Positions 1,784-43,207 of a DNA stretch of 64,000 bases are shown here, one piece after another. Where the stretch lies: positions 3,038,001 to 3,102,000 of the forward strand of contig NC_092403.1 in assembly GCF_009017415.1 (NCBI RefSeq). The letters run 5' to 3'. The notes beneath the pieces are model-generated. The model had not been told where the DNA came from, did not search any database, and saw only the letters and a list, made by a program, of their open reading frames with translations. This DNA comes from Aspergillus flavus (lineage: Eukaryota > Ascomycota > Eurotiomycetes > Eurotiales > Aspergillaceae). The translations under genes and the position numbers were made by a program. Position 1 is the first letter of the stretch; each line of letters begins with the position of its first letter.

Positions 1784-2659
1784 ATGACACTCCCAACACC
1801 ACAACACTACCACATCTTCGGCCAGGGCATATCCCAAAGTCTCTCCCCTACAATCCACAATGCCGCCTTCGCGCACTACGGCCTCCCACACCGATACGAC
1901 ATACAAGAATGCAACAGTCTCCAAGACGTCAAGTCCCTAATCGATGACCTGACCTTTGGCGGTTCTAGCGTGACGATGCCCCATAAACTCAGCGCCGGGG
2001 TGTTCTGTGCTCATGTGTCTGATTCCGCTACTCGGCTGGGAGCGATTAATACTCTTATTGCTCGGTCGATTGAGTCTGGAGATGGAACTTTGACACGGGA
2101 GATCCATGGTGATAACACGGATTGGTCGGGTCTTTATTCCCTGATCAAGGAGCATGCCTCTGGGGAAGGAAAGCAAGTTGGACTTGTGATTGGAGCTGGA
2201 GGCGCAGCTAGGGCAGGTGTTTATGCGATGGCTCAGGCTGGGATTGAGCGAATTTATGTTGGTAATCGGACGTTGGCGAAGGCGGAGCAAATTGCGAGAG
2301 ATTTTGAGGATTTGTGCCGCGTTATACCGGTTCAGTTTCCATCGGCGCTGCCAGAGGCTCCGGATGTGATTATTGGGACTGTTCCCGGGGAGGCTATGCC
2401 GCAGGAGGCATTCAAGGGTTTGTTTAGGAATGAGAAGGGTCTGTGTATTGAGATGGCGTATAAGCCACGAGTGACGAATTTGTTGGCCGTGGCGAGGGAA
2501 AACCCCGGATGGACTACGGCAGATGGGGTGGAGGTACTTCTTCGACAGGGCTTTGAGCAGTTTCGGTTGTGGACAGGGTTGGATGCACCGGAGGCAGTTA
2601 TGAGGAAGGCTATTGAGGCTGCTACGGAAGGCAAGGTTGGAGGGACATCGTCATTGTAA
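1784..2659 (+). CDS. Shikimate dehydrogenase-like protein, AROM/QutR-type
   Basis: A 291-residue, intronless shikimate/quinate dehydrogenase, an NAD(P)-dependent oxidoreductase of the AroE fold. The substrate loop SxLSP is at about residues 19-22, followed by HNAA; the catalytic lysine is K68 in TMPHK and the catalytic aspartate is D113 in NTDW. The nucleotide loop GAGGAARA and the NRT turn follow, and the C-terminus has the EQFxLWTG helix. The N-terminal pattern (IFGQ, LSP, HNAA, GLP) is much closer to the dehydrogenase domain of the QutR-like gene at 8591 than to the other two free-standing dehydrogenases here, suggesting origin from an AROM/QutR-type domain. All core catalytic residues are present, so it is probably active; the substrate (shikimate, quinate or an analogue) is not clear. 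Confidence 0.85.
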   Translation: MTLPTPQHYHIFGQGISQSLSPTIHNAAFAHYGLPHRYDIQECNSLQDVKSLIDDLTFGGSSVTMPHKLSAGVFCAHVSDSATRLGAINTLIARSIESGDGTLTREIHGDNTDWSGLYSLIKEHASGEGKQVGLVIGAGGAARAGVYAMAQAGIERIYVGNRTLAKAEQIARDFEDLCRVIPVQFPSALPEAPDVIIGTVPGEAMPQEAFKGLFRNEKGLCIEMAYKPRVTNLLAVARENPGWTTADGVEVLLRQGFEQFRLWTGLDAPEAVMRKAIEAATEGKVGGTSSL

Positions 2660-3008
2660 TATAAAACGCAAGCCTACAGTAAATAGAACATCACTAGGAA
2701 TGCGTTGATTTAACTTTCATACGATGTACAACGATGTCGACTTAGACCGAGTAATATGGAATGTATTTCTACTGGGCATCCTATCAATCATCTACCATGC
2801 GAAGTGTAGGATGTAGCCGTTGTATAGAATGCATGCCAGATCATATACGCGATCTATATCTTAACTGTACTTTCTTGCAAGACAATAAATATACTGAATG
2901 AGTTACAGGTAAAGTTGACCGAGTAGATACTAGTGACTAAATGATATGGATAATTATTCAAGTCTAAAGCCCTCGAATCACTAACATGTCTAACAACACA
3001 ACGTACAT
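2660..3008. other. Intergenic between convergent genes
   Basis: 349 bp, AT-rich, 3' ends of two convergent genes. GGATAA at about 2948 is only a half of the published QUTA/QA-1F consensus. Nothing else seen. Confidence 0.4.
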
Positions 3009-3752
3009 TTACCAAGCAACATCCTTTCCATCCATCCAGTCCTTGGCCTGGAAATAAAGCAAATCATGCTTCTGTCCATTGATCGTGGACCCTTCCCTAC
3101 GATGACCCGGCAAATCCAAAAGCACCTTAACCCCCATAGTCTCCTCCTGCATATACGCCAAATACCTATATCCAGGCGGATACTTCTTCAACCTCTCCTC
3201 ATCTAGAACAGGAACACGTCCCGGATTCACAGGAATCAACTTATCCTTCTCATACCAATGCCTAACAAACCGAGCCCGCCACTGACCCCGCAAATCAGGA
3301 TACGCCGGATCCGTCATCTTCTCCCAGAAAAAGATAAACCGACAATCACTCTCCGCATCAGCGTCGCATGTCCCGCCAGATACACAGCTGACGTCGCTGA
3401 ACCGCTGCGTGATGGTTGCTTTCATCTTTGTGACGGCACGTGTGGCATCGGGGTCGATATCGGTTGTGCTGCCGTGGATGCGGTGCATGATGAACGCTCC
3501 CTTGTCCATGCCGGCTTGGGAGGCTTCGATGAATTTTTTATGGTGGGTGAGTCCCGTCCAGGTTGTGTAGATGTGGGCTTCTGGGTGGAAGATTGAGAGG
3601 AGGTTTTCCCATTCGCAGGCGTCGCGGTAGCAGGGCCATCCTTCTGCTAGTTCGCGGAGCATGTAGCGTTCTAGGGCTAGTTGGGGGGGCCCGTTGTTGC
3701 GGATGGCGTGTTGTGGCCGTGTGCCGGCGGGGAGAGAATGGAGGTCGGGCAT
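3009..3752 (-). CDS. SnoaL-like (NTF2-fold) protein
   Basis: 247 residues, no intron. After about 30 residues come the long helix [14 protein letters not shown], then [20 protein letters not shown], a pattern of the SnoaL/NTF2-like fold whose members include polyketide cyclases, dehydratases and small-molecule isomerases, and also non-enzymatic binders. The middle part (FIMHRIHG ... [10 protein letters not shown]) and [10 protein letters not shown] give the expected strands; the last 60 residues are an extension that wraps around the fold in related fungal proteins. It shares a 286-bp divergent promoter with the dehydrogenase at 4039, which implies co-regulation. It is not part of the classical quinate cluster, and its reaction cannot be deduced from sequence. 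Confidence 0.7.
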
Positions 3753-3908
3753 TTTGAAGATGGATAGGTATGTGTAAGAGGAGATGAAGTTCTCTGGAAT
3801 TCAAGGGAATAGAGAATCAGTGCAGAGAGAGAATGTTAAGTAATTCCAGGTGCGGAACTATAGTTCCCACTATGCATGACTGCCTGGTTGACGGCTAAAT
3901 CCTCCCCG

Positions 3909-3917
3909 CATCGGCTG
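3909..3917 (-). promoter_or_regulatory. AGCCGATGC element in divergent promoter
   Basis: AGCCGATGC on the minus strand, between the SnoaL gene (start 3752) and the dehydrogenase (start 4039). It shares AGCCGATG with the elements at 8481, 11812 and 13271. GGATAATCATTGCC at about 3985 is a partial match to the QUTA/QA-1F box. Confidence 0.4.
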
Positions 3918-4038
3918 TATACACAACCGATCTCTTGTGCATAAGAAGATATGGTAGCTTCTACTACACCTCACATTTACCTACACGGATAATCATTGCC
4001 TCTATCGATTCAGCATACCTTCGTTTACGTATTTCACT

Positions 4039-4947
4039 ATGCCCTCAGAAACAGATCCCCGTGCCTATGCTTACCTTGTCGGTGTCGGAGTGACCCACTC
4101 CATCGCTCCACCCATGCACAACTACATTGCAAAAGCACTGGGCCACGACTGGACATTCATCGCGAAAGAATGCCCAACAGTTGAAGATGCCGTTGAACTG
4201 TTTCGACGATCTGACTTCGCCGGCGGCGTGGTGACCATGCCTTACAAGCGCACTATCATGGACCACCTCGACGGTCTGGACGAATACGCTATTCGACTTG
4301 GGGCATGCAACAACGTATACCGGACATCTGACGGAAAATTAAGAGGCACCAATACCGACTGGCGCGGGATTAAGGGATGTTTGCTGGGAGCGAGCGCAGA
4401 AGGCAGAGGAAAGCCGGCTGTGCTTATCGGGGCTGGAGGAGCTGCACGGGCGGCGATATTTACTCTACACGATCAATTGGAATGTCGACAGATCCATCTC
4501 GTTAATAGGGATCGCGATGAAGTCAAGGTCCTCTTGGAAGAAGTGAAACAGGTGTATGGTGACGGCTTGGAGATCATTTATGTGGAGCGCGTCGAGCAGG
4601 TAGCGGGTCTCCCCTCGCCGTATTATATTGTGGGCACTGTTCCGGACGCTGAGCCTAGCACCCCCGACGAGGTGGAAGTTCATCAGATTATTGGGTCATT
4701 TTTGTCGACCCCTCAAGAGAAAGGCGTTCTACTCGACATGTGTTTTAAGCCACGAAAGACGCGGATCCTGCAAGCTGGACAGGCGAACGGCTGGAAGACC
4801 GTTGAGGGAACCGAGATTATCGGCCACCAGATTCATGAGCAATACCGACTGTGGTGCGGCGAGGAAGAAAGTAGCCAAATTCCTGTGACTGACGCATGGG
4901 CAGTGCTTCGCAAGGCAGCAGAGGAAAGTCCTGCAATCAACTTTTAA
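4039..4947 (+). CDS. Quinate/shikimate dehydrogenase-like protein
   Basis: 302 residues, no intron. AroE fold with HSIAPPMHN at about 20-28, K70 in TMPYK as catalytic lysine, NTDW with the catalytic aspartate, GAGGAARAA as nucleotide loop, LVNRD after it, and IVGTVPD and the IHEQYRLW helix near the end. The second serine of the AroE SxS substrate pair is alanine here (S21-I-A23), as in the QutB-like protein at 12090. IVGTVPD, the EMCF/DMCF-type strand and NGW-GTE also match that protein better than the one at 1784, so this looks like a second quinate-dehydrogenase-lineage paralogue. It stands 218 bp before the dehydroshikimate dehydratase, same strand. Confidence 0.85.
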   Translation: MPSETDPRAYAYLVGVGVTHSIAPPMHNYIAKALGHDWTFIAKECPTVEDAVELFRRSDFAGGVVTMPYKRTIMDHLDGLDEYAIRLGACNNVYRTSDGKLRGTNTDWRGIKGCLLGASAEGRGKPAVLIGAGGAARAAIFTLHDQLECRQIHLVNRDRDEVKVLLEEVKQVYGDGLEIIYVERVEQVAGLPSPYYIVGTVPDAEPSTPDEVEVHQIIGSFLSTPQEKGVLLDMCFKPRKTRILQAGQANGWKTVEGTEIIGHQIHEQYRLWCGEEESSQIPVTDAWAVLRKAAEESPAINF

Positions 4948-5165
4948 TTAGGGAGATTTTCTGTATCGATTATGCATTTGTAGATAAACGATCGGACATT
5001 TTCCGATTCTTCAGTTCGGTTAAGAATAGTGCCGTTACCAAGAAGTATATGTACAGGACCGGTGCCTCATATCAATGTACGTTTTGTTGGGTTCTCATTT
5101 ATAATTTCGACCTAATTATCTTTCTCCGTATTTACACTTGTCCCTGCCACAACTCGAACGCCAAA

Positions 5166-6170
5166 ATGCCTTGTGCGCCAGCAATCGCATCTATGTCCCT
5201 GGGAAGAGCCTGGGTGCATTCCCTCCCCGAAAAGCTCTCTCAGGCAGCCAAAGCAGGATTCAAAGGTGTCGAAATATTCTACGAAGATTTGGAATACCTC
5301 GCTAAAGAAAAAGGACCCGTGAATGACTCAACATTGTTTGCTGCCGCTCAAGAAGCGAGAGCAATCTGCGACCACTACGGCCTCGAAGTGATTGGAATGC
5401 AGCCATTCTTGTTCTATGAAGGTCTCACCGATCGGGCTCAGCATCGGGAAAAGATCGAGCGCCTTAAGTTGTGGTTCGCAATCGTCAAGATCCTCGGCAC
5501 CGATATCATCCAAATACCCTCGAACTTTCAATCCGAAGGGATATCGGGTGATCTGGATTTGATTGTTTCCGACATGATCGAAGTTGCGGACATGGGACTG
5601 AAAGAGGAACCTGTTGTCCGGTTTGCATACGAGAATCTTGCCTGGGGTACTTTCATTTCAACGTGGGAGGATTTGTGGGAGGTGGTTCGCCGCGTGGACC
5701 GGCCTAATTTCGGGTGTTGTCTGGACACCTTCACCATCGCTGGACGGGTATGGGCGGACCCTGCCAGCGCCTCTGGTAAGACACCAGGTGCAGACGCCGC
5801 ATTGGCTGCATCATTACAGAGCCTTGTTCGGACGGTCGATGTGAACAAGGTGTTCTACGTGCAGGTCGTCGACGCAGAAAGAATGCAGCAACCGTTGATC
5901 GAGGGTCATCCATTTTATGTCGAAGGACAGCCAGCACGCATGAGCTGGAGTCGCAATGCCAGACTGTTCCTCTATGAGCAAGAGCGCGGTGGCTATCTGC
6001 CAGTAGTACAGGTGGCTGAAGCCTTCCTAAAACGTCTTGGCTTTGAGGGGTGGGTGTCAATGGAGTTGTTTTCGAGGTCGATGGCGGATCCAGACCCGAC
6101 AGTGCCAGAGACACATGCACAACGGGGCATCAATGCCTGGAGGAAGCTGGCGGAGGAATTGGATCTCTAA
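5166..6170 (+). CDS. qutC: 3-dehydroshikimate dehydratase (QutC-like)
   Basis: 334 residues from the ATG at 5166 (MPCAPAIASMSLGRAW); the frame is open further upstream but only into the promoter. It is a sugar-phosphate isomerase/epimerase-type TIM barrel. Visible barrel signatures are GFKGVEIFYEDL, the strand QIPSNF, RFAYENLAWG (metal-binding glutamate), NFGCCLDTFTIAG (metal-binding aspartate), FYVQVVDAE and GWVSMELFSR with a late metal-site glutamate. This is the fungal QutC/Qa-4 pattern, near its usual length of about 350. The enzyme turns 3-dehydroshikimate into protocatechuate, the exit of the quinate pathway. Its neighbours (dehydrogenases, dehydroquinase, QutA/QutR-like regulators) support the call. 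Confidence 0.85.
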   Translation: MPCAPAIASMSLGRAWVHSLPEKLSQAAKAGFKGVEIFYEDLEYLAKEKGPVNDSTLFAAAQEARAICDHYGLEVIGMQPFLFYEGLTDRAQHREKIERLKLWFAIVKILGTDIIQIPSNFQSEGISGDLDLIVSDMIEVADMGLKEEPVVRFAYENLAWGTFISTWEDLWEVVRRVDRPNFGCCLDTFTIAGRVWADPASASGKTPGADAALAASLQSLVRTVDVNKVFYVQVVDAERMQQPLIEGHPFYVEGQPARMSWSRNARLFLYEQERGGYLPVVQVAEAFLKRLGFEGWVSMELFSRSMADPDPTVPETHAQRGINAWRKLAEELDL

Positions 6171-6249
6171 GTCGGCTCGCTGTGTATCTATCGAGTAGAC
6201 GGTATTTCCTGGTTACATTCGTATAATTATTAAAGATTACAGATCAGTA

Positions 6250-8368
6250 TCAACCGTGAGCTGGTTGTTGCAACTCGGCAACAAAGTCTGTTACCAGGTC
6301 TCCTGCATGGAAGCCCAGGTTATGTGCAAACGTAGGTTCGTGGCTGTAGAGTGTTAGAATACACGGTTACTGGGGGTGTCTTGGATAGAGCATACCTCAT
6401 CGGCGTAATGGAAGCAACCATTTCTTCAAATAGTGCGTCAAAGTTGGCTGTTTCATCCAATAGATGTGGCGTTTGTTGATGACTTGAAGATATTGGGGTA
6501 GGGATGGTAGGTGCTACTGTCAATTCAGGCGTGTTAGAAAGGCCTGAGGCCAAGTAGGTCGGGGCATCACGCATGCTGGTAGGATTGATGATGGGTGCAG
6601 TTGCAGCAATATGGGCCATGTTAACAGGTATCCCAGGGGTGTAGGTATTATTCAAGGCTTGGATCGCAGGAAGAAGATTATCCAAGTCGTCTACATTCCA
6701 GCCCGGTCGCAAGTTACTTGTATTCGACCTGTCTAGTCTCGTGGGACTGGCCAACTTCAGTTTGCCCGTAAGCTGACCGAGACGCTTTTGCAACATATCC
6801 TCTTCACCACAGCCGCTAATCAAAATGCTCGTGCGTAAACATCGTTGTGCCTGGAAAAAGAACCAATACAGAAGGGGAGAAGATTTCGTTTTTCCTGTGA
6901 TCTCAATGTATTGATCCAGCAGATCCAGACACGATCGCAAGGCATGGAGTGCCATGGTGGTAATGGCCGCATCGCCGACGTTGCATTTGCTAACGAAGCA
7001 CAACGTAACAAAGGCTGATGTCAGGTGCAAATTCAGCAATGGAGGGTTGAGTGAGTGACGCGGGGGATATGGGTAGCGTGTGGAAAGAACCGATTGCCAG
7101 TCTCTTAATTTAGAAACAATCTGTTGTATGCCCTCCTGTCCCGGTGGACAGTGCAACACTTGGGTCAATAACTGCATGAGCTGATGGACCAGGTTAAACA
7201 TGCTCAGGGCTCGCAATGGCCCCTTCGGAGCAGGTCTTTGACTCGGGACTTGATCACTAGAGGCTGTCCATGTCTCCCATTCCTCCAGGTCGTCCTCGGC
7301 GATTGGTTTATGTTCACTCTGTTCTTCCAAAGAAAGACACGGAGTCTTTTCGAGAAGTGCAGAAACCATATTGTCAAGAAACACACAACCTTGGAAAACG
7401 TGTTTGTATCTCGGTTTTCTGGCAGTCTCAGGGAGGGTCGCGACAATTCTCATAGCCTGGCCAACGAGCACCCAGGCTTGGGTTAGGTCTCCACGTCCAA
7501 TATTCAGGAGAGCTACAATTAGTAGGGCCTGAACGTGACTCAAATGTAGATTGTTAAAATCTAGCATCAGGCGCAGGCGTATGGAGGTTTCTAGATGTTT
7601 CGGCTCTAGACAAGCCTCCCCACTGGCATTTTCTCGCATCGTTTGCACGTATGCAATAATAGCCCATAGAACTAACGGACAGCCTGTGTCACGATCCTTT
7701 GTGGAAGGGTCACTGTGCATGGTCCTCAGGATGTCCCGCCGGTCAAGGATAGGGAACCAACATTGGATGTAAACAAAATAGAAGTCCACCAGCTCAGCGA
7801 CGTCGTCTGGGAATGACACACTGAGGATGTCATTGGATGAAGTTATATGTAATGGAGGCGGAGGAGCAGGGATGGACTCCATATCAGTATTCGAGACATT
7901 CACTGGGGTCTGGGTCGTCCGCTCAGGACTATGTGTGTCGCATGACTCCCATTGGTGGTCATCATCGCCATCGCCAAGAGCTTCGTATATCTCCTCTTGC
8001 GAAACTGGTGCTAACAGGCGACTGACACCTTTGGCGACTTTGGAATTGCGCCATATCGATGTGTATTTCTCGGACCATTCGGTGGCGAAAAAGCCACTGT
8101 GATGTCGAGGGTTACGAAGGAAGCCTTGAACCAGGCTTTCGCTGTCAGGTATTTGCTGGAACACAATTCCCAGTATAGTTTCAAGGGCCTTCACGTAGCC
8201 AGTTTGCAATCCACGCCGTCGACCGTTATCCTGGTATGTACATCGCCGGCCGGCCTGGCGGCAGATGGCACACTCTGGTTGCTCCCCGTCGCATTTGGAT
8301 TTGCGGCGACGACACTGGTCGCATGCACGACTAATCCGCTGGCGCTTGTTGGGGTGTGATCTTGGCAT
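6250..8368 (-). CDS. qutA: QutA-like Zn2Cys6 transcription activator
   Basis: Two exons: 8368-6396 and 6343-6250, joined over a 52-bp intron (GTATGC..ACAG); 688 residues. Without splicing the reading would end in a different tail; the spliced end reads HEPTFAHNLGFHAGDL, fitting the activator family. The zinc cluster CDQCRRRKSKCDG...C-x2-C-x6-C is at about 16-43, followed by a basic linker and a fungal_trans-type middle region (for example FYFVYIQCWFPILDR). QutA/Qa-1F proteins activate the quinate-use genes and are held by QutR. Divergent arrangement with the QutR-like gene across 222 bp is strong support. Because this cluster is unusual it could be a paralogue serving a related pathway. Confidence 0.8.
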
Positions 8369-8480
8369 ATCTTTGAGTATGCCAAACAGAGACCGTCAGC
8401 ACGGTATGCTCGCTAGCTGAGGTCGTCGTCGTCGTATAACCAAACACGGAGGATACGGACGTGGGCACGTGATCGGATAT

Positions 8481-8496
8481 GGAATTAGCCGATGGC
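8481..8496 (+). promoter_or_regulatory. Shared 16-bp element GGAATTAGCCGATGGC
   Basis: Lies in the 222-bp divergent promoter of the QutA-like and QutR-like genes. It is identical in 15 of 16 bases to the element at 13271-13286. It contains CGG on the reverse strand (GCCATCGGCTAA), the half-site typical of Zn2Cys6 proteins. Confidence 0.55.
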
Positions 8497-8590
8497 GAAT
8501 CCGAAACTCAAAGATCAAGAAGATCCAAACGATCTCGTTGTGTATGGGTTCAGGATGTGATTTTTGATTTTTTGAATACGTACACTGAGG

Positions 8591-10891
8591 ATGAGCTTCC
8601 AAGTGCCCAGTAGCCATGTACAGCACCGTGGACTACCATCGTCTTCTCGGCGATATAGCTCGGACGCTAGCCTGGTGCTGGTTGGGTTTCCTGGGGCGGG
8701 CAAGAAAACCCTAGGCATCATGGCCGCTGTGGCGTTGCGTCGACGGCTTGTTGACTTTGTCGCTGTTTTTCAGCAAAGGCACGGCATGCACCCTCAAGCT
8801 TATATTGTCTCACATGGCTCGGAACGATATCGCAAACTCGAGCTAGAAGTGACCGAGGAGATATTAACAGAGCATCGAAAAGGATGCGTGATTGTTGGAC
8901 TCGGCTGGCTGGCAAGCAGACAACAGCAGGTACTGTTGGAAGAGTTCGCCTCTTGTCATCCAGTTCTCTACATCCGACGCGACCGAAGGGATCTACAGCA
9001 GCTTATCGCGACTAGCCAGGACAAGTTTGAGCGCATGTGGGACGCTGGAAATTCGTTCTTTGAATCGTGTTCCAACCTGGAATTCTACAACGTTACAGAA
9101 GGTTCGACTGACGAGGCTCGCTCCGCACTACCTGCGTATTTAAAGTTGAAAGAGACGGAAAGGACGTTCGTAAGGTTCCTGCATCGCATCTGGGGCCGTG
9201 AACACCTGACTCGTTATTCGGCAGATCCATTATCTGCGTCGTATACGTATGCTTTGCAGGTACCAATGGCTTGCCTAGAGGGACCACTCGAAAGTTACGA
9301 GGAACTCGAGAATGGGGCGGATGCAATAAACTTGAAAGTTGAGCTTTCTGAATTCCACGGCAGAAGGCCATCCGAGTCAATGGCAAGGGCGGTAGCCATG
9401 CTTAGGAGGCACTCGCGGGCCCTGGTGATCGTAGATATCATTCCGTCCTCGGTACCGGATATATTGAGCTATCGCAAGCTCCTAGGGATGGCCTTACGGA
9501 CCATACCAGATGCTATCACTTGCTCCATGGCGCATGGAGATGACCTGGCGCAGGAGGTAGCTGCAGCCAAGGGTTACATTAAGGCTATAGCAACGTATCA
9601 TCAAGAATATTCTCTGGCGAGGAATGAGACACGTCCAGAGCTTTTTACCTTCCGCCAGAAAGCACAAAGTATTGGTTTCGACGCAATCCATATAACCGGC
9701 GAATCAACAGCACCCGGAGACAGTCTTCACGGTATATCCTTTCCGCACACTCTCGCCAAAGACTCTCTCATACCTACCATCGCATACGACACGGGACTCT
9801 TTGGACGCACTTCTGTGTGCTTAAATCCAATCTTGTCACCGGTAGTGCTCGAAAGCATGAAGCCGACAGGTGTTACCTTGCGGGAAGCAGAGATGGCCGT
9901 GTCAGCATGCTTTCTTCGTCGCAGGAAAAGATTCGGCATTTTTGGGCAACAATTATCGCACACTCTGTCACCTGCGATGCACAATGCTGCATACGCCGCA
10001 TGTGGATTACCATATACGTATGGCATAGCAGAGAGAGAAAGGCTATCTGACATTCGCGAAATCTTAGATGACGAGAGCTATGGAGGCGTGGCGGTGTCAC
10101 TTCCCTACAAAACTGAAGTTCTGCCCTACCTGGACGAGATAAGCCCAGAAGCTCTTGACATCAACGCGGTAAATACGGTGGTACTGCATCAGGAGTGCCA
10201 ACCGAATGGAGTACGCAAAACTATTCGCAAGGGCTACAACACTGACTATCTTGGGATCAAGGATTGCATCTATAAACACCTTTCCCCAGCAAATGCTATC
10301 CGTGACGGATCAACTGCGCTGATAATCGGTGCAGGAGGCATGGCCCATGCTGCGATATACGCATGTTACCAGCTTGGTGTAAGGCGGATATGTGTCTATA
10401 ATCGAACCCTTTCCAATGCCCGACGACTTGTCGACTACTATCGCGAATGGGTGAAATCAAAGGATAAGGCCCCTTTAGAGCTCACCATACTCTCATCAGC
10501 GGATGATCCGTGGCCGGCTCACCTTCGCCAACCCACAGTTATTGTGTCGTGTATTCCCGGGCAGAAGTGTGACATCGAGTCATCGAGTGCTTTGAACATT
10601 CCTGACCACTGGTTACAAAGCAGAACTGGCGGGGTCTTTGTTGAGGTAAGGCCTTTGTACAATCACGCGAAGACCTTCTACTAACAGCTATAGGTCGCCT
10701 ACGATCCCTTAGAAACGCGCCTCATAAGATCGATGAGACAACATGTATCACGAGGCTGGATCATTGTTGATGGCCTGTCGGTCTTAGTCGAGCAGGGTAT
10801 TGCGCAGTATGAGCTCTTTACAACACGACCGGCTCCAGTGCATGTCATGAGACGTGCCATTCAGCAGTCTATTTTAGAGAGGACTGTTTGA
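8591..10891 (+). CDS. qutR: QutR-like repressor, three AROM-type domains
   Basis: Two exons, 8591-10645 and 10694-10891, over a 48-bp intron (GTAAGG..TATAG); 750 residues. Domain order matches the C-terminal three domains of AROM: a shikimate-kinase-like P-loop (GFPGAGKKT at 32-40), a type I dehydroquinase-like middle (LVIVDIIPS ... FTFRQKAQSIGFDAIHI), and a shikimate-dehydrogenase-like end (HTLSPAMHNAA, SLPYK, NTDYLG, GAGGMAHAA). The second exon supplies the C-terminal helix. QutR/Qa-1S proteins have this build and repress by binding QutA. At 750 residues it is shorter than the roughly 900 I recall for the family, mostly at the N-terminus. Its dehydrogenase part still has the lysine and aspartate expected at the active site. 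Confidence 0.85.
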
Positions 10892-11237
10892 TCTTTTACG
10901 TAGATTGTACTAGTGTCTTAGCTCGGTTTATCCATGATTATCACGCAAGGTTCGCAATAACGGGCACGAGTGTCTTCATAACATCGCCTTTACTAGATAG
11001 ATAATCTACCAATAATCCTATAACTAGCAGTTTATGCAAGCAGAATGAAGTCAGTGCCTTCTAGCTACTCTTAATAAGTCTCGCCTCCTCCAATAAGCAA
11101 CCGGATTCGTATCCAGCTACCCGTGTCAAGCACTATATATACAAGGCAACATCAATTTACTCACAACCCCAAACACAACCTTCGATCTATACTAAACTGT
11201 ACAGACATAAATTCCCCTACTCTCCATAACCCTCCAA
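10892..11237. other. Intergenic between convergent genes
   Basis: 346 bp, 3' ends of the QutR-like and dehydroquinase genes. AT-rich; no further signal recognised. Confidence 0.4.
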
Positions 11238-11690
11238 TCACTTCCTCTCCTCCAAACCGACCAAATTCTCCAACGCATGCTTCACCGCAACCTGATACCC
11301 AAAAGTCCCCAACCCAATGATAACCGCCGCCGCCTTATCCGATAAATAGCTATGATGTCTGAACGATTCCCTAGCATGCACATTGGTAATATGCACTTCA
11401 ATAAATGGAAGCCCAACACCAAGCAATGCATCCCGCAACGCAACACTGGTGTGCGTAAAGGCACCCGGATTGATGACGACCGCCTGAGATTTCCCTCTTG
11501 CTTCATGGATTCGGTCAATCAACACGCCCTCGTGGTTGGATTGTAGACATTCTACTTCTGCGCCGTAGCTGGCTGCTAGTTCTTTGGCGACTGTTTCGAC
11601 GTCGTTGAGGGTTGTTGTTCCGTAGAGGTGGGGTTCGCGGGTGCCCAAGAGGTTGAGGTTTGGACCGTTTAGGAGGAGGATTGAGGGCAT
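11238..11690 (-). CDS. qutE: Catabolic 3-dehydroquinate dehydratase, type II
   Basis: 150 residues, the usual length for a type II dehydroquinase. Textbook motifs: [21 protein letters not shown] at the N-terminus (with the catalytic tyrosine and arginine on the flexible loop), [46 protein letters not shown] with the catalytic histidine region, and [15 protein letters not shown]. It dehydrates 3-dehydroquinate to 3-dehydroshikimate in quinate catabolism, as QutE/Qa-2 do, separate from the AROM complex. Its promoter (11691-11830) contains the cluster element at 11812. No intron and no sign of decay. Confidence 0.95.
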
Positions 11691-12089
11691 TTTGAATTTT
11701 GAAAGGGATGTTTGGGGTTGGGTTTGGAGTATGGAGATGGGTGTAGAGAGTTGGGTGTATTATAGATTGTTTGGTGTCGGATGAACGGTTGTGCACTAAA
11801 CCGTCGGGTATGGATTGAGCCGATGGGAGTATAGGAGTCCCAATTACGATGCTATTAGGACTTCTAGTACCCAGAACTGTATCTTGATTAGTGCATCGGT
11901 CAAGCACGAACAGAGATGTAGGTGTATGATGGCGCCCAAAAGTTGTACATTGGTGGAGGCTTTGTTCGTTCTCCTATTTCGCTTTGAAGATCCATTGTGT
12001 GTAGTATTGAGAATTGTAGATCATAGTATACCCTGGTATGATTTTAGGAAATATTCTCTCGAAGAAACTAATAAAGCTCAACATTTTAC
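11691..12089. other. Intergenic: dehydroquinase promoter and dehydrogenase 3' end
   Basis: 399 bp. The dehydroquinase promoter includes the element at 11812-11827. The rest is the downstream flank of the minus-strand dehydrogenase. No other gene seen. Confidence 0.4.
11812..11827 (+). promoter_or_regulatory. Shared element GGATTGAGCCGATGGG
   Basis: About 120 bp upstream of the dehydroquinase start at 11690. It matches the 16-bp element at 8481 in 13 of 16 positions, with AGCCGATGG intact. Confidence 0.5.
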
Positions 12090-13112
12090 TCAGTTCCTCC
12101 GCATCAGGGCATCTCTGATCTTAGCGCGTATTGTAGATAGCGTAGATTCTTTTTCAAACACCTCACCCTTCTCTGTCCAGAGAATATGCTGGGCAACTCC
12201 CTGCCAGATCATCGCCTCTGTTCCAGAAATGACTCGCCAGCCATTTCTCTCCGCGAACTGATAAAATGAAGTCTGCACGCGAGGATGATAACACATTTCC
12301 AGCACGACCCCCTGGCTCTTCTGCATCCCTCCTGCATCACATCCCATGAGAGTATCCACAATCCTCTTTGCGAGAATCTCCGCCTCTGTCTCAGGATCCC
12401 GGTCAGGAACGGTACCAACCACCAAGTAAGGTCTGGAGAGCTCTGCTGCGGATTCTACCGTATCCACGAACTGAAGCTTCGCCTTGAAGTCTGGTACTCG
12501 CCTGAATGACTCAATGATATCATCTATCTCCTCCTTTAACCTGTTCACAAGGTATATCGTCTTGACGCCCAAAAAAAAATGGAGAGCGTAGACCGCAGAG
12601 CGACATGCACCCCCGCCCCCAATGATCAGACCAGGTTGACTGGAACCAAAAGCAAGGTCCTTGGCGTCAACGTTTTGCAGAAATGATTCTTTTACGCCGA
12701 TGCAGTCCGTGTTAGTTCCGATCAGGCGCGAGCGACCGTTATCACCTCGCCGGATAAACACGGTGTTAATGGCGCCGATAGATCGTGCCTCGTCCGTTAC
12801 CGCGTCCACCATGTCCATAGAACGGACTTTCAGGGGCATTGTCACGGCCGTTCCGAGAGAGTCTGGTTTTACGAGAAGCTCTAGGAGCTTTTCGCTGTTG
12901 TCCGTTTCAATCGCTTCGTATGTGCATGCCGCTCCTGCCAAGGAGAATAGGGTGTTGTGTAGGAGAGGTGCCAGGGAGTTCCTGAGTGGGGATCCCAAGA
13001 GGTATGTTTTAAGCGTCTGTGTATCCTTCTGGGAGACTGGAGAGAAGAACGATGTGCCATATTTGTAGGAATCCCTCAGGAGGGCTTCGGTGTCGAGAGT
13101 ATGTTCGCTCAT
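12090..13112 (-). CDS. qutB: Quinate dehydrogenase (QutB-like)
   Basis: 340 residues from the ATG at 13112 (MSEHTLDTEALL); the frame continues upstream but with no ATG. The N-terminal SYKYGTSFFSPV segment before the fold is characteristic of fungal quinate dehydrogenases. Then come NSLAPLLHNTLF, catalytic lysine K95 in TMPLK, NTDC with the catalytic aspartate, GGGGACRSAVYAL as nucleotide loop, VNRLKEE, VGTVPDRDP and the QHILW helix. The enzyme oxidises quinate to 3-dehydroquinate with NAD, the first step of the pathway. It is convergent in function with the dehydroquinase next door, same strand. Promoter element at 13271. A short A-tract (12571-12578) sits in the frame without breaking it. 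Confidence 0.85.
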   Translation of the reverse strand: MSEHTLDTEALLRDSYKYGTSFFSPVSQKDTQTLKTYLLGSPLRNSLAPLLHNTLFSLAGAACTYEAIETDNSEKLLELLVKPDSLGTAVTMPLKVRSMDMVDAVTDEARSIGAINTVFIRRGDNGRSRLIGTNTDCIGVKESFLQNVDAKDLAFGSSQPGLIIGGGGACRSAVYALHFFLGVKTIYLVNRLKEEIDDIIESFRRVPDFKAKLQFVDTVESAAELSRPYLVVGTVPDRDPETEAEILAKRIVDTLMGCDAGGMQKSQGVVLEMCYHPRVQTSFYQFAERNGWRVISGTEAMIWQGVAQHILWTEKGEVFEKESTLSTIRAKIRDALMRRN

Positions 13113-14083
13113 GCTTGCCGCTGTTGAGGTTTTAGGGTTCTCGGCCAAAATTAAATTGTTCAACGAGTGGGCAAGTGTGTAGAATCACAGTGTATATTTG
13201 CATTTCTAACAGGGACTCATGAGCAATAAAAGGGATATTTTGGGTATTCCGTGCGTATTTGGTCGCCAAAGGACTTAGCCGATGGCAGGCATCCCCTCCG
13301 CAGAGTATTTGGTTGGTTGGCTGACTTCCACTGCTGAGACTATGTCCCTTAGATCCTCGCCGCACAATACAACACGCTCGAGTGAGATAGGAAGAGCCTT
13401 CAGGCAGATAGTGGACTTTCGCCGCATTTCAATTTCCATCCCCACCTCGGCTCTATATTCGATTCTAGTTAGAAGGTAAAAAGGTTAGAACTACATAGCT
13501 TGTGAACTGAATTCAATAGTAATCTTATTTACGACGTTCAGACGAGAATTAGGGCTCAGCCTAGGTCTAGTAACCTGCGGCTCGGAAGACGCTTTGCCCG
13601 GGAAGCCATAGTTCGTGGCGCAGACAAGAGTTCAGAACTTCCGCCTTCCGAAGGGTTGTGGTCTCTGCATTAGTATGTAGTATGCTCCCTAACCTCCGTG
13701 GGTTCCGGAATACCGAGACCCCAGGTAAGGGCGAGATTGTCAGCCTGATTCCTAGGCTGATTACTAGGAGTCAGGAAGTAGTTTCTACTGCTAGAAAGTC
13801 TACAGTCCACTATTAGTCTATAATATATACAATTTTCAATTTCAATATTGTTAGTAGTAACCTCCTTAGCTTCTGAAAGTTAGTAATTGATAAAAGATTT
13901 CTTTCTACATTACATATCCAGTTTTTAGTTATTGTTATTGTATAATTTCTGCCCGGCAGGCTGGACTGTATACCTACCTCCTTGATTGAGTATGTACACT
14001 GGCAGGTCAAGGTTTCACTTATTGGAGAGTCGTTATATATTGAGACTAAAAGCATTAAGAGCTGGCGACAGTAGAATGATAAT
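13113..14083. other. Intergenic: QutB-like promoter, then AT-rich relic DNA
   Basis: The first 200 bp are the quinate dehydrogenase promoter with the element at 13271. From about 13800 to 14080 the sequence is strongly AT-rich with no open frame, resembling DNA decayed by repeat-induced mutation. I see no gene and no intact transposon. Confidence 0.4.
13271..13286 (+). promoter_or_regulatory. Shared 16-bp element GGACTTAGCCGATGGC
   Basis: About 160 bp upstream of the QutB-like start at 13112. It differs from the element in the QutA/QutR divergent promoter (8481-8496) at one base only. Confidence 0.55.
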
Positions 14084-15964
14084 TTACCCGCCCACAGCAT
14101 GTGCTGTTTCATTGTTAAACACATGCGTGCCGGCCGGAACAGCATAGATGGTATAGTCACTGTCCACACGGACAAACCTAGCCCGCCGCGATGCGTTTAC
14201 TTTCCCGACAGATGGTAAACGCACCTCTGCCTCAGCATTTGCGGGGACATTTACCGTGAGATGAAAGTTACCTTCTGCAGTCCTTTGCCACTCACAACGA
14301 GCCTCTCCCTGGAGCATCTGATAAGTCCCACTAGCGCTCGTCAGATCCCCGACCAGCTTAGGCTGGAAGATTAGCCGATTCTCCCAGGTGGAGCTGAGAG
14401 TAGTTAGAGCAACGGGCTGAATCCCTACTACTCCAGCGTGGAACCATTCGTCAATCTGCGCGAGAATCATGTGGTTCTTAGAGTCGCTGTGGTCCCATTG
14501 CTCGCCAATGGTCGTAAACCCATTAGGATTAGCCACCGTGGGAGCCACGAAATAGCCATAGCTTGGCCGGTCATTCTGCTGAAGTGCATCCCAAAGAACG
14601 TCGTCACGACCCCCAGCTGACAACGCTCTTACAATTGGACCCAGGCCAATCTGGCCGCCACTTAGATGTGGGCCTACTCCGTCTCTTGAGGGGTAGTCGT
14701 ATGTCAGCTCGACGAGCGCATTGAGGACCTGTTGGCGATGTTTTTCGGGGACAAGCCCGGAGTCTAAAGCCAATTCCTGCGCAGTTTGGGTGGCGTTGCT
14801 GGTGTCATTATTGCCAGCATCGGTGTATCGATGATTGCTGTCATTCCAGAAGGCAGTGTTGAAGGCGTTGCGGATGTCGTGAGAAAGGTCGGCGTAACGG
14901 TGAGCGTCGGCTTGGTGTCCAGTAAGGTTGGCGATGCGGGCCATGGCTTTGATGGTAAGATAGTAGCCCCAGGTGCCGGTGATGCGGCCCGAGGTCTGCG
15001 AGCTATCCTCCACCCAGTCAGCTAGGGCCGCGTCGACAATGTGTCCTCGAGCTTTCTCCCGCTAGATGTAGTCAACAAAATCGACTAATCGGTCATAATA
15101 GGTTGCCATGACTGTTGTGTCACCGTACAAGTCATACAGGAGTGAGGGAACGAGGACAATGGCATTACCCCAGTTAATCTCGTCTCCAAAACGGCCACTA
15201 TACCCTCAATCGTAGACGGGTGTCTTCAGGGCAACGTTTCCGGCCATCGACGTGTTTGCGATGGACTGGCCTTCCACCAGGTGATGCGCGGTAGTGCGCA
15301 AGAAAGCCGGAAATTGGAAGTTGCGCGCCAGGGCCCCGAACGGCTGAGTGTAATCTGCCGGGTAAGAGAGCTTCTCTCGTCCGGGGCAGTCAGTGAAGAC
15401 GGACATGATGTTGCTGGCCATTGAATGCCACGCCATCTTGTGGATCCGGTTGAGACGAGCGCTAGAGGAGGTAAAGCTGCTCGCAGCTGGAACGTCCGCT
15501 TGAACACGGAGACCTGTGATTAGGTTCCGGCTAGGTTTGTAGCCGCGAGGCAAACCTGTGACTTGCACCCACTGCATACCGAAGTAGTTGAACTTCGGGT
15601 GCCATGTCTCACCACCAGGCCGGCCGGCAGTGGTATACGTATTGAACAAATCGGTGCCGGGGTCTCCCGGACCCAGTGACGCCTGGTCAACCGTGCCGTT
15701 TGCAGCAAGTGACTCGGCGGGAGCCACCTTGACTGTCGTACCAGCTGGTAGTTCGGGGAGGTTGACTAGGGGGAAACCGACAATATTCTGGTCGAAGTCG
15801 AAGACCCAAGTCCCAGGGGCAGGCTCGCCGACTGATACCGGCGTGAGCCGCTCCTGGATCTTGACAGGCTCAGCTGCACGAGCGACCAGCCGAGTAGCAA
15901 GGTTAGGTGGAGGGAGCTTAGAATCTATAATTAGAGTGTGTTTCGGGTCAGGTTCAGATCCCAA
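14084..15964 (-). pseudogene. Alpha-L-rhamnosidase (GH78) pseudogene
   Basis: One long frame on the minus strand, about 627 codons, reads as a glycoside hydrolase family 78 protein: a beta-sandwich part (VFDFDQNIVGFPLVNL, FNYFGMQWVQVTG), start of the (alpha/alpha)6 barrel (NRIHKMAWHSMASN, DCPGREKLSY), then GGQIGLGPIVRAL, TTIGEQWDHSDSKNHM, EWFHAGVVGIQP and a C-terminal sandwich. Two in-frame stops break it: TGA at 15206-15208 and TAG at 15062-15064, both explained by C-to-T changes (CGA to TGA, CAG to TAG). Family proteins continue further at the N-terminus, but upstream of 15964 the DNA turns AT-rich and closed. Enzymes of this family release rhamnose from plant glycosides; this copy should be dead. 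Confidence 0.8.
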
Positions 15965-39308: not shown

Positions 39309-42300
39309 ATGGCCGGAGACGGGAAAATAACCATCTCAATCGATCGGGGAGGCACCTTCACTGACGTACATGCCATCGTACCCGGGAAACCTGACATCAT
39401 CCTCAAGTTACTCTCCGTCGACCCCGCCCACTATCAAGATGCTCCCACCGAGGGTGTGCGCCAGATTCTCGAGCTCGTCACAGGTGAACCCCACCCCAGA
39501 GGGCAACCGCTGAAGCTGGATCGGATTGGGTCTCTGCGCATGGGAACAACGGTGGCTACAAATGCGCTGCTGGAGAGGAAAGGGGCCCGGTCAGTCCTAC
39601 TCACGACCAAGGGCTTCCGCGATCTACTCAAGATTGGTGATCAGTCACGGCCAAACATTTTTGATCTGTCGATGGCCCGCCCAGGAGTGCTGCCGGAAGG
39701 CGTGGTTGAGGTCAATGAACGTATTGTCCCGTGCCATCCATCGGCAGATAAGGATTGCTTCTCCGGAGCTCGCATCGTGGAGGGTGTGACCGGGGAAAAG
39801 TTCCGTGTCGTGCAGGAATTAAACCTCGAGGAGGTTCGCTCGGAACTCCAGCGGTATAAGGAGCAGGGCTACCAATCCCTGTCGGTCGCGCTGGTCCACT
39901 CCTTCGCATACCCAGAGCATGAACGTCAGATTGGCGAGCTGGCCGAGAGCATGGGCTTCTCCGTGACATTGTCCTCCAAGCTACAGCCGATGATCAAAAT
40001 CGTCCCACGAGGCATGTCTGCCGCGGCTGATGCCTATCTCACACCCGTCATCAAGACATATATTGACTCGATTTCCTCCAGCTTCGAAGGCGGCTTGGAG
40101 CGTCAGCGCGAGTGCCGCTTCGAGTTCATGCAATCGGATGGTGGACTGGTCGATTTTCGCCGATTCAGCGGGCTGAAGGCGATCTTGTCCGGTCCTGCAG
40201 CCGGCGTGGTCGGGTTCGCCGCCACGAGCTGGGATCCCACCGAGAAGACACCCGTGATCGGCTTCGACATGGGCGGTACATCAACGGATGTGTCTCGTTT
40301 TGACGGTCATCTCGAGCATGTTTTCGGATCCAAAGTTGCCGGTGTGCTCATTCAATCCCCGCAACTCGATATCAATACTGTCGCGGCAGGTGGCGGCTCT
40401 ATCCTGTCATATCGTAACGGATTGTTCTATGTCGGACCGGAATCGGCATCCGCCCACCCCGGCCCTGCTTGTTACCGCAAAGGAGGACCATTGACAGTCA
40501 CAGATGCTAACCTATTCCTGGGCCGCTTACTACCTGAGTACTTCCCACACATCTTCGGTCCCAACGAGGACCAGCCTCTTGATCTCGAAGTGACCACCAA
40601 GCTTTTCAATGAGTTGACCCAGAAGATTAATGCGGAGAGAAAAGAGAAGGGGCAGCCGGAGTACGCTCCGGAAGAAGTTGCTCTGGGATTCTTGAAGGTG
40701 GCCGATGAGTCGATGGCTCGCCCTATTCGCAACCTGACTCAAGCCCGTGGCTTTGAAACCGCATCGCACCATTTGGCCTGTTTTGGAGGCGCCGGTGGTC
40801 AACATGCATGCTCGGTTGCGGCATCACTGGGCATCTCACGCATTATCATCCATAAATACTCGTCTGTCCTCTCCGCGTACGGGTTGGCGCTGGCCGAGGT
40901 GGTCAAGGAATCTCAGGAGCCGGTCTCCGCTGACTTTGAGACATCTCAGTCAAGCCTCGAGAAGCGCTTCAATGACATGACAGACAGCGCTACAGCAGAG
41001 ATGAGCACCCAAGGATTCTCAGCGGATCAAGTGCGGCACGAGCTGTACCTCAATATGCGCTATGAGGGCTCCGATACCAGTTTAATGATCTTGAAACCTG
41101 AAGATGATTCGGGCTTCCTGGAACAGTTCAAGACCCGGCATCGCAGAGAATTCAACTTCAATTCTGACCGAGCGGTCCTAGTGGACGACATTCGTGTGCG
41201 TACGATCGCTTCATCGAATGTGCGCACTGAGAAGAGTCCTCTGGTCCAGTTGCGGGAGGCCAGCTTGCAAGATGTGAGCGGAACTCCGGACAATACAACG
41301 AAAGCGTACTTTGACGGATACTCCAGCCGCATTGACACGCCAGTCTATCTTCTGGACAAGCTCCAGAAAAATGCTCGCGTCCATGGTCCTGCCGTCATCA
41401 TCGACAAGACCCAGACTATCGTGGTAGCTCCAAATTCCATAGCCAAGATCCTGGATACTTGCATCGTCATTGATCTAAAGGAGGAGCAGACTACCGTCAA
41501 TGGCGTTCCTTCAGAGCTCTCATCCGAAATTGACCCTATTAGACTGAGTATCTTCGGTCATCGTTTCATGTCCATCGCTGAACAGATGGGTCGCACCCTG
41601 CAGAAGACATCCGTCTCAACCAACATCAAAGAGCGCCTGGACTTTTCCTGCGCTCTGTTCTCTCCAGATGGCGGGCTTGTGGCCAATGCTCCCCACGTTC
41701 CTGTTCATCTCGGTTCCATGCAATTTGCCGTTCGCTACCAACACCAGAAATGGTTGGGTAATCTGAGGGACGGTGACGTCTTGGTCGCCAACCACCCCAG
41801 TTGCGGTGGAACTCACCTTCCTGACATCACAGTAAGCCAATCCCAATGCACTCCAACATCACTAGCAACCCTAACCAAACGATACAGGTGATCACGCCTG
41901 TGTTTGATAAGCCAGGTGGCAGTGAAATAATGTTTTATGTCGCCTCTCGTGGCCACCACGCAGATATCGGCGGCATCCTGCCAGGGTCGATGCCACCAAA
42001 ATCCACCGAGCTGTGGCAGGAGGGTGCAGCCATTGAAGGAGAGAAAATCGTGAGCAATGGCGTCTTTGAGGAGGAGCGTATAATCGACCTCCTAGTGAAC
42101 AAGCCAGCAGAACACCCCGGATGCTCGGGCTCGCGGTGCATTAGCGACAATCTATCGGACTTGAAGGCACAGATCGCGGCTAACACACGCGGTATCGCCC
42201 TGATTCAGTCCTTGTTCGCCGAGTACGGCGTCGAAACCGTCCAGAAGTACATGTACGCGATCCAAGCCACGGCCGAGACAGCCGTGCGCAACCTCCTGAA

Positions 42301-43207
42301 GGATCTCTACAAGCGCTTTAACGGCGAGCCCCTGGAAGCCGTCGATTACATGGATGACGGTACTCCCATTAGACTGAAGGTCACGATCAATGAGTCGGAC
42401 GGATCTGCCGTCTTCGACTTCTCCGGCACCGGGCCCGAAGTGTACGGAGGCTGGAACGCTCCCATCGCCATCACCCATTCGGCCATTATCTACTGCTTAA
42501 GAGCCATGATCGCCTCAGACGTGCCTCTCAACCAGGGCTGTCTGGCGCCTATCGACATCCAAGTCCCGTCACACAGCATCCTCTCGCCGACCAAGACGGC
42601 AGCCGTCGTGGGCGGTAACGTCGTGACATCGCAAAGAATCACCGATGTCGTCCTGAAGGCCTTCCGCGCCTGCGCCGCCTCCCAAGGATGCTGCAACAAT
42701 CTGACTTTTGGCACCAACTCCAAGGTAGACCCAGACACCGGCGCAACCATCCCTGGCTTCGGCTACTACGAGACCATCGCCGGAGGCAGCGGCGCAGGAC
42801 CAACCTGGAAGGGCGAGTCCGGCATCCACGTCCACATGACCAACACGCGGATTACTGACCCTGAGATCCTCGAGAAGCGGTATCCCACTCTGCTGCGCCA
42901 GTTCACCCTCCGATCCGGCTCGGGCGGAAAGGGACTCCACCCCGGTGGTGACGGCGTCATCCGAGACATTGAGTTCCTGGCGCCTATGGAATGCTCGATT
43001 CTATCGGAACGGCGAGTCCATCGTCCTTATGGTCTGGAGGGAGGAGAAGACGCCCAGTCCGGTCTCAATCTGTGGATCTCCAAGGATGAGGAGACGGGTG
43101 AGGAACGCATCGTGAATATCGGTGGTAAGAATACGGTTTCGATGAAGACGCATGATCGTATCGTGATCAATACTGCTGGTGGGGGTGGTTGGGGTGCTGC
43201 GCAGTAG
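39309..43207 (+). CDS. 5-oxoprolinase (ATP-hydrolysing)
   Basis: Two exons, 39309-41831 and 41888-43207, over a 56-bp intron (GTAAGC..TACAG); 1280 residues, the expected size. The first half is HyuA-like, an actin-fold ATPase with [38 protein letters not shown] and [11 protein letters not shown]; the second half is HyuB-like with [79 protein letters not shown] and a glycine-rich end. It opens 5-oxoproline to glutamate using ATP, in the glutathione cycle, in the cytosol. The intron lies just before the HHADIGG motif. Housekeeping gene, no link to the neighbours evident. Confidence 0.95.

Follow-up and report, generated by a model that had tools for sequence, protein, structure and literature searches.

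A candidate second cluster for the catabolism of shikimate-type plant acids in Aspergillus flavus

The window analysed here is a stretch of 64,000 nucleotides from Aspergillus flavus (C8:3038001–3102000, in a genome of 37.7 Mb on 8 contigs), within which positions 1784–13112 hold eight open genes that include several types known from the quinate (QUT) clusters of filamentous fungi. We consider it somewhat better than an even bet that these genes form a second catabolic cluster, under its own regulation, that serves shikimate-type plant acids, and that they are probably what the fourth AROM-derived activator–repressor module of the Aspergilli controls. Read in this way, the locus gives the fourth module candidate target enzymes and candidate inducers. 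An earlier note on this DNA, made from the letters alone, had described a quinate-type cluster with extra dehydrogenases; what is gained over it is a likely identity for the SnoaL gene, the finding of a canonical cluster elsewhere in the genome and the link to the fourth module.

The genes were called from open reading frames (ORFs) and Pfam domains (Table 1). Three encode free-standing members of the shikimate dehydrogenase family (SDH1, SDH2 and SDH3), and the others encode a SnoaL-fold protein, a 3-dehydroshikimate dehydratase-type protein (DSD), a Zn2Cys6 activator (TF4), an AROM-derived repressor (REP4) and a type II dehydroquinase. Pfam places Shikimate_dh_N in the ORFs of SDH1 (1784–2659, +) and SDH2 (4039–4947, +), in ORF 12090–13163 (−), whose first ATG, at 13112, marks the start of SDH3, and within ORF 8591–10684 (+). 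This confirms the inventory given in the earlier note, namely three dehydrogenases and a fourth such domain in a QutR-like gene, accompanied by DSD, type II dehydroquinase, QutA-like and SnoaL genes. Because REP4 has a single intron (10646–10693), this gene extends beyond its plain ORF to 10891, giving a product of 750 amino acids. The whole genome has 8 Shikimate_dh_N matches and 2 type II dehydroquinases; since four of the former and one of the latter fall within these 11 kb, the genes form a true cluster and not a chance assembly. The contig is 3.25 Mb long and ends about 200 kb from the cluster.

A canonical QUT cluster is present on contig C6, at about 1046–1064 kb. Its regulators are a QutR-like repressor and a QutA-like activator. 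Beside them lie the genome's other dehydroquinase, a QutB-like dehydrogenase and a DSD, together with an inositol-monophosphatase-family gene, which we take to be qutG, a permease of the sugar-transporter family and a Gfo/Idh/MocA oxidoreductase. The last belongs to the family to which the qutH orthologue has been assigned and, provided that the qutG identification holds, the C6 gene set agrees with the A. nidulans QUT list (both from PMC12610400). The cluster in the window is therefore the second one in this genome, and the classical, permease-bearing qut cluster that the earlier note had proposed looking for does exist. The earlier note also held that qut and qa clusters encode quinate dehydrogenase only once and lack a SnoaL gene, which agrees with the gene lists in PMC12610400. 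By Pfam, none of the eight genes at 1784–13112 encodes a permease or a qutG-type protein, both of which types are present on C6. The DSDs of the two clusters are 58% identical in a genome search; further DSD-like genes lie at C8:3186509–3187465, about 85 kb past the window (42% identical to the DSD studied here), and at C5:727596–728615 (38%).

First, the cluster has regulators of its own. TF4 and REP4 are divergently oriented with 222 bases between them, and constitute a Zn2Cys6 gene adjoining a repressor built of the last three AROM domains; by blastp, REP4 is 34% identical to the QutR and TF4 33% identical to the QutA of the same genome. REP4 has a 98% identical counterpart in A. flavus strain AF70, and all 120 of its best homologues (of 210) match REP4 better than they match the QutR, TanX-like, GaaX-like or AROM proteins of this genome. 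Among those fitting REP4 best are proteins named for A. tubingensis, A. welwitschiae and A. brasiliensis, species that are close to A. niger. The dehydroquinase domain of REP4 is weak in Pfam (51 bits, versus 132 in QutR), and in the alignment of that region the AROM Lys, presumably the Schiff-base Lys, is His in REP4, Arg in QutR and the TanX-like repressor, and Lys in the GaaX-like repressor.

In A. niger, four AROM-derived activator–repressor modules have been described, of which the fourth, NRRL3_07604/07605, is divergent, is called of unknown function and has a repressor in which the dehydroquinase domain was undetected (PMC10512348). The adjacent gene number, NRRL3_07603, belongs to a DSD paralogue that is silent on quinate, at 0.6–1.5 transcripts per million (TPM) on fructose, quinate and protocatechuate and in a qutX mutant (PMC12610400). 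Both the gene order (DSD, then activator, then repressor) and REP4's weak dehydroquinase domain agree with this description, and TF4 and REP4 probably correspond to that fourth module. The open-access literature that we searched, as far as its text was available to us, yielded no report of a function or target genes for NRRL3_07604/07605; it also gave nothing direct on the use of shikimic acid as carbon source, on degradative clusters or on pea pathogenicity proteins in connection with quinate or shikimate. The three characterized AROM-derived modules control catabolism (PMC10512348, PMC12610400). In this genome two more AROM-like repressors are encoded close to Zn2Cys6-type genes, at C8:1.75 Mb and C3:2.54 Mb; by their domains and by the way the genes are paired and oriented, they resemble TanX/TanR and GaaX/GaaR.

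Second, the dehydrogenases are old, separate lineages. Identities by blastp are 37% between SDH3 and QutB, 35% between SDH2 and SDH3, and 34% between SDH2 and QutB; SDH1 is 35% identical to AROM, 33% to REP4 and 29–31% to SDH2, SDH3 and QutB, and the solved structures nearest to it are AROM proteins. A maximum-likelihood tree was built from 25 chosen rows, consisting of 8 sequences from this genome (with QutR and the TanX-like protein entered without their last exon), 10 of the 120 SDH2 matches and 7 of the 120 repressor matches. In this tree, SDH2 and its homologues form a clade (support 100/99), SDH3 pairs with QutB (93/86) and SDH1 falls in an unresolved group with AROM and the repressors. 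The range of 29–37% identity among SDH1, SDH2, SDH3 and QutB, combined with their separate positions in the tree, rules out recent duplication of one quinate dehydrogenase. With these enzymes not being recent copies of one another and a QUT cluster standing on C6, the locus is not simply the local quinate cluster with duplicated genes, an outcome that the earlier note had allowed for.

Aligned residues separate these enzymes further. SDH1, SDH2, SDH3 and QutB all have the catalytic pair of Lys and Asp, as well as the Asn and Gln that bind the substrate. The carboxylate of shikimate is bound by two Ser and a Tyr (PMC4892741; the two Ser are also given in PMC2789096), and this set is complete in SDH1 and QutB. 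In SDH3 the second Ser is replaced by Ala; in SDH2 the second Ser is Ala and the Tyr is Phe, each in 110 of the 121 rows formed by SDH2 and its best 120 homologues (of 1061), and the Thr that follows the substrate Asn is itself Asn in 119 of these rows. With its altered carboxylate-binding residues, SDH2 is the strongest candidate for an enzyme that acts on another substrate. Since SDH3 goes with QutB and the residues of SDH1 are ordinary, only SDH2, and less so SDH3, would be a clear candidate of this kind, so the proposal in the earlier note that the extra dehydrogenases act on other substrates holds up in part: for SDH2, to a lesser degree for SDH3, and not for SDH1. All four enzymes have the NR motif, and the cofactor rule quoted in PMC4892741 therefore does not separate them. 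SDH2 is AFLA_013104 of A. flavus NRRL3357, identical except in a stretch where that gene model seems mis-spliced, and the label 'quinate dehydrogenase' on many SDH2-type proteins may be wrong.

Third, the SnoaL_4 protein is probably an aromatic-acid decarboxylase. Its strong matches among solved structures are PPP2 (7jmr, E = 8.8e-48) and AGDC1 (6w54, E = 3.5e-40), with a third match (E = 0.008) taken as chance. PPP2 and AGDC1 are decarboxylases that act on protocatechuate and gallate in a cofactor-independent manner (PMC7862292), ruling out a polyketide cyclase. The dyad H86–D40, the tryptophan clamp W35/W61 and the substrate residues R39, T60, Y150 and Q192 are all present, and Y146 of AGDC1 is Val, as it is in PPP2. 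Three homologues (P0003, P0005 and P0116) are labelled 'catabolic 3-dehydroquinase' by their source, perhaps a label inherited from an adjacent gene. The genome was searched reading frame by reading frame, an approach that may miss intron-broken genes, and no second SnoaL-type decarboxylase gene was found; the N-domain of catechol-type dioxygenases occurs at three loci elsewhere in the genome. A. flavus belongs to the same section as A. sojae. The latter is reported to convert protocatechuate to catechol by decarboxylation (review PMC12388069).

Fourth, members of the cluster share contigs in other fungi. As a proxy for linkage, identical contig sizes among the listed homologues were taken as the same contig (118, 120 and 120 values, two rows of the decarboxylase list having no contig), and pairs of three genes were compared: the decarboxylase homologue, SDH2 and REP4. 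Contigs were shared by the decarboxylase homologue and SDH2 in 7 cases, by the decarboxylase homologue and REP4 in 6, and by SDH2 and REP4 in 10, compared with 0 to 0.05 in shifted controls. One contig, from A. sclerotioniger, is common to all three; other named holders include A. wentii, A. indologenus, A. saccharolyticus, A. multicolor and A. filifer and, outside the genus, Capronia epimyces, Exophiala bonariae, Lophium mytilinum and Coniosporium tulheliwenetii, with some holders having matches only 56–70% identical, which may be paralogues. Shared contigs of 11.4, 22.3, 24.4, 31.4, 40.8 and 48.9 kb suggest close linkage. Additionally, 8 of the 120 listed repressor homologues, all from Aspergillus, have gene models that continue into a downstream DSD (P0273, P0291, P0293, P0301, P0309, P0311, P0318 and P0334), which places repressor and DSD side by side in those species. 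We doubt a true fusion, given that the first residues of DSD are kept at 6 of the 8 joints (5 of these with its Met; P0291 and P0318 are without them); in those 6 the gene models have probably merged two neighbours, which is less clear for the other 2.

From these observations we propose how the cluster might work. A shikimate-type inducer would bind REP4, acting as an enzyme-like sensor, and REP4 would release TF4, which would switch the cluster on, perhaps via AGCCGATG-type sites. SDH1 would oxidize shikimate to 3-dehydroshikimate. The same intermediate would be reached from quinate, or a relative of it, through oxidation by SDH3 to 3-dehydroquinate and conversion of that product by the type II dehydroquinase. 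DSD would then yield protocatechuate and the SnoaL-fold enzyme catechol, whose ring would be opened by dioxygenases encoded elsewhere, and SDH2 would act on a further related substrate. The 'diverged or specialised shikimate-derived pathway' of the earlier note fits this scheme with a modification, in that the cluster looks catabolic and its SnoaL gene is a decarboxylase homologue.

The promoter motif in this scheme is a suggestive candidate. AGCCGATG occurs in four of the six intergenic stretches of the cluster, its core AGCCGA in five of them, and the 8-mer was found 5 times in 163 kb of other loci. It was not found at the three loci of catechol-type N-domain genes (L027–L029, L037 and L044–L047), and one of the other dioxygenase loci, L034, has one match. 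The binding consensus of N. crassa qa genes has no match in the window or in the C6 stretch examined.

A number of points weigh against reading the locus as a second catabolic cluster under the fourth module. The full AGCCGATG was not found upstream of SDH1, nor any form of it upstream of DSD, and some 8-mer reached four of six segments in 6 of 400 random six-segment sets; the DNA sampled for these sets was a mixture of coding and non-coding sequence, with overlap between some background loci. The likeness to the A. niger module is one of gene layout and published description. Sharing of multi-megabase contigs means linkage only, and covers pairs of three genes. The cluster's eight genes lack a permease. 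The support joining SDH3 to QutB (93/86) lies under the starred level of the tree, and the resemblance of SDH3 to QutB fits quinate as its substrate. In the SnoaL_4 protein, the position of E88 is Ile and, among its best 120 homologues (of 535), Cys in 64, Ile in 26, Val in 26, Ala in 4 and Glu in none, and the position of V148 is His in all 120. E88 is the K+ ligand of AGDC1 and essential there, the E88A mutant being dead (PMC7862292). The replacement of E88 and the His at V148 make the activity and substrate of this enzyme uncertain, and point to a branch of the AGDC1 family without the K+ ligand that AGDC1 needs.

The best of the alternatives, to which we would give a distinctly minor share of belief, is that the cluster is a redundant quinate cluster: its substrate would be that of QUT, the extra dehydrogenases would widen the range and the decarboxylase homologue would be incidental. 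The pairing of SDH3 with QutB, and a dehydroquinase and DSD that repeat QUT steps, speak for it. It fits less well with an activator and repressor just 33–34% identical to QutA and QutR, with SDH1, SDH2 and the SnoaL gene having no counterpart in the QUT gene list (PMC12610400), or with the A. niger paralogue NRRL3_07603 staying at 0.6–1.5 TPM, quinate and the qutX mutant included (PMC12610400).

Improbable, in our view, is a gallate branch, in which SDH2 would oxidize 3-dehydroshikimate to gallate and the SnoaL-fold enzyme would convert gallate to pyrogallol. Plant SDHs do form gallate from 3-dehydroshikimate, and those of group III, including VvSDH3, carry Asn for Thr407 (PMC4892741), as do SDH2 and its homologues in 119 of 121 rows; the pocket His of the SnoaL_4 protein could replace the lost hydrogen bond to gallate. 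However, PMC4892741 itself calls the link of the Thr407 residue to gallate untested, SDH2 also loses carboxylate-binding residues, and the Val at Y146 is shared with PPP2, which is poor on gallate (PMC7862292). A biosynthetic cluster for a shikimate-derived secondary metabolite is less probable still: several oxidoreductases do lie beside a Zn2Cys6 regulator some 200 kb from a contig end, but Pfam finds no synthase, P450 or transferase among the eight genes, and catabolism is what the three characterized AROM-derived modules control (PMC10512348, PMC12610400).

Returning to the second catabolic cluster, an extended form of this reading can be put forward only tentatively. The fourth AROM-derived switch would govern a non-quinate route; SDH2 would found a fungal subfamily whose substrate is not anchored by its carboxylate in the usual way, be it a shikimate derivative or 3-dehydroshikimate on the way to gallate; the SnoaL-fold enzymes that have a pocket His, and Ile, Val, Cys or Ala in place of E88, would be a potassium-independent AGDC1 branch; and the linked cluster would extend across distantly related ascomycetes.

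Table 1. Genes of the cluster and candidate regulator sites, in window coordinates
Feature	Position	Strand	Basis
SDH1, shikimate dehydrogenase family, NRT motif; proposed shikimate dehydrogenase	1784..2659	+	Pfam, structure search, identities, alignment, tree
SnoaL_4 protein, AGDC1/PPP2 homologue; proposed protocatechuate (or gallate) decarboxylase	3009..3752	-	Pfam, solved structures, residues
Candidate regulator site AGCCGATG, between SnoaL gene and SDH2	3909..3916	-	Suggestive only
SDH2, separate dehydrogenase subfamily	4039..4947	+	Pfam, homologues, residues, tree
DSD, 3-dehydroshikimate dehydratase type, TIM barrel	5166..6170	+	Pfam, genome search
TF4, Zn2Cys6 activator, QutA-like; Zn_clus + Fungal_trans	6320..8368	-	Pfam, blastp
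Candidate regulator site AGCCGATG, between TF4 and REP4	8487..8494	+	Suggestive only
REP4, AROM-derived QutR-like repressor; SKI + DHquinase_I + Shikimate_dh_N	8591..10891	+	Pfam, splice, blastp
Type II dehydroquinase; DHquinase_II, 201.5 bits	11238..11690	-	Pfam, genome search
Candidate regulator site AGCCGATG, upstream of dehydroquinase	11818..11825	+	Suggestive only
SDH3, QutB lineage; proposed quinate-type dehydrogenase	12090..13112	-	Pfam, blastp, tree
Candidate regulator site AGCCGATG, upstream of SDH3	13277..13284	+	Suggestive only

Around the cluster, an MFS (major facilitator superfamily) transporter gene (Pfam) and an ORF resembling a fungal transcription factor lie 5–9 kb before SDH1 (L022 positions 2712–3773 and 4865–6445; C8:3030.7–3034.4 kb). 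On the other side, an alpha-L-rhamnosidase-like relic at 14084–15964 (−) adjoins an AT-rich stretch and consists of ORFs 14084–15013, which Pfam covered, and 15206–15964, with no open frame between them. Farther along, two overlapping long ORFs at 39309–43207 (+) look like pieces of a single hydantoinase/oxoprolinase-type protein.

Finally, the cluster can be set beside known systems. With the QUT and qa clusters of A. nidulans, N. crassa and A. niger it shares a quinate-type dehydrogenase, a type II dehydroquinase, a DSD, a Zn2Cys6 activator and an AROM-derived repressor; it differs from them in having no permease, qutG or qutH, in its three dehydrogenase lineages, in its AGDC1-type homologue and in its own regulators. 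In common with AGDC1 and PPP2, that homologue has the fold family, dyad and substrate residues, with Ile here at E88 and His at V148. The pairing of a Zn2Cys6 activator with an adjacent AROM-derived repressor is also that of TanR/TanX and GaaR/GaaX, but the Tan and Gaa enzyme genes of A. niger are unlinked to their regulators (PMC12610400), whereas the enzyme genes in the window are linked to theirs. With the fourth module of A. niger the cluster shares a divergent activator and repressor, an adjoining DSD paralogue and a weak or undetected dehydroquinase domain.

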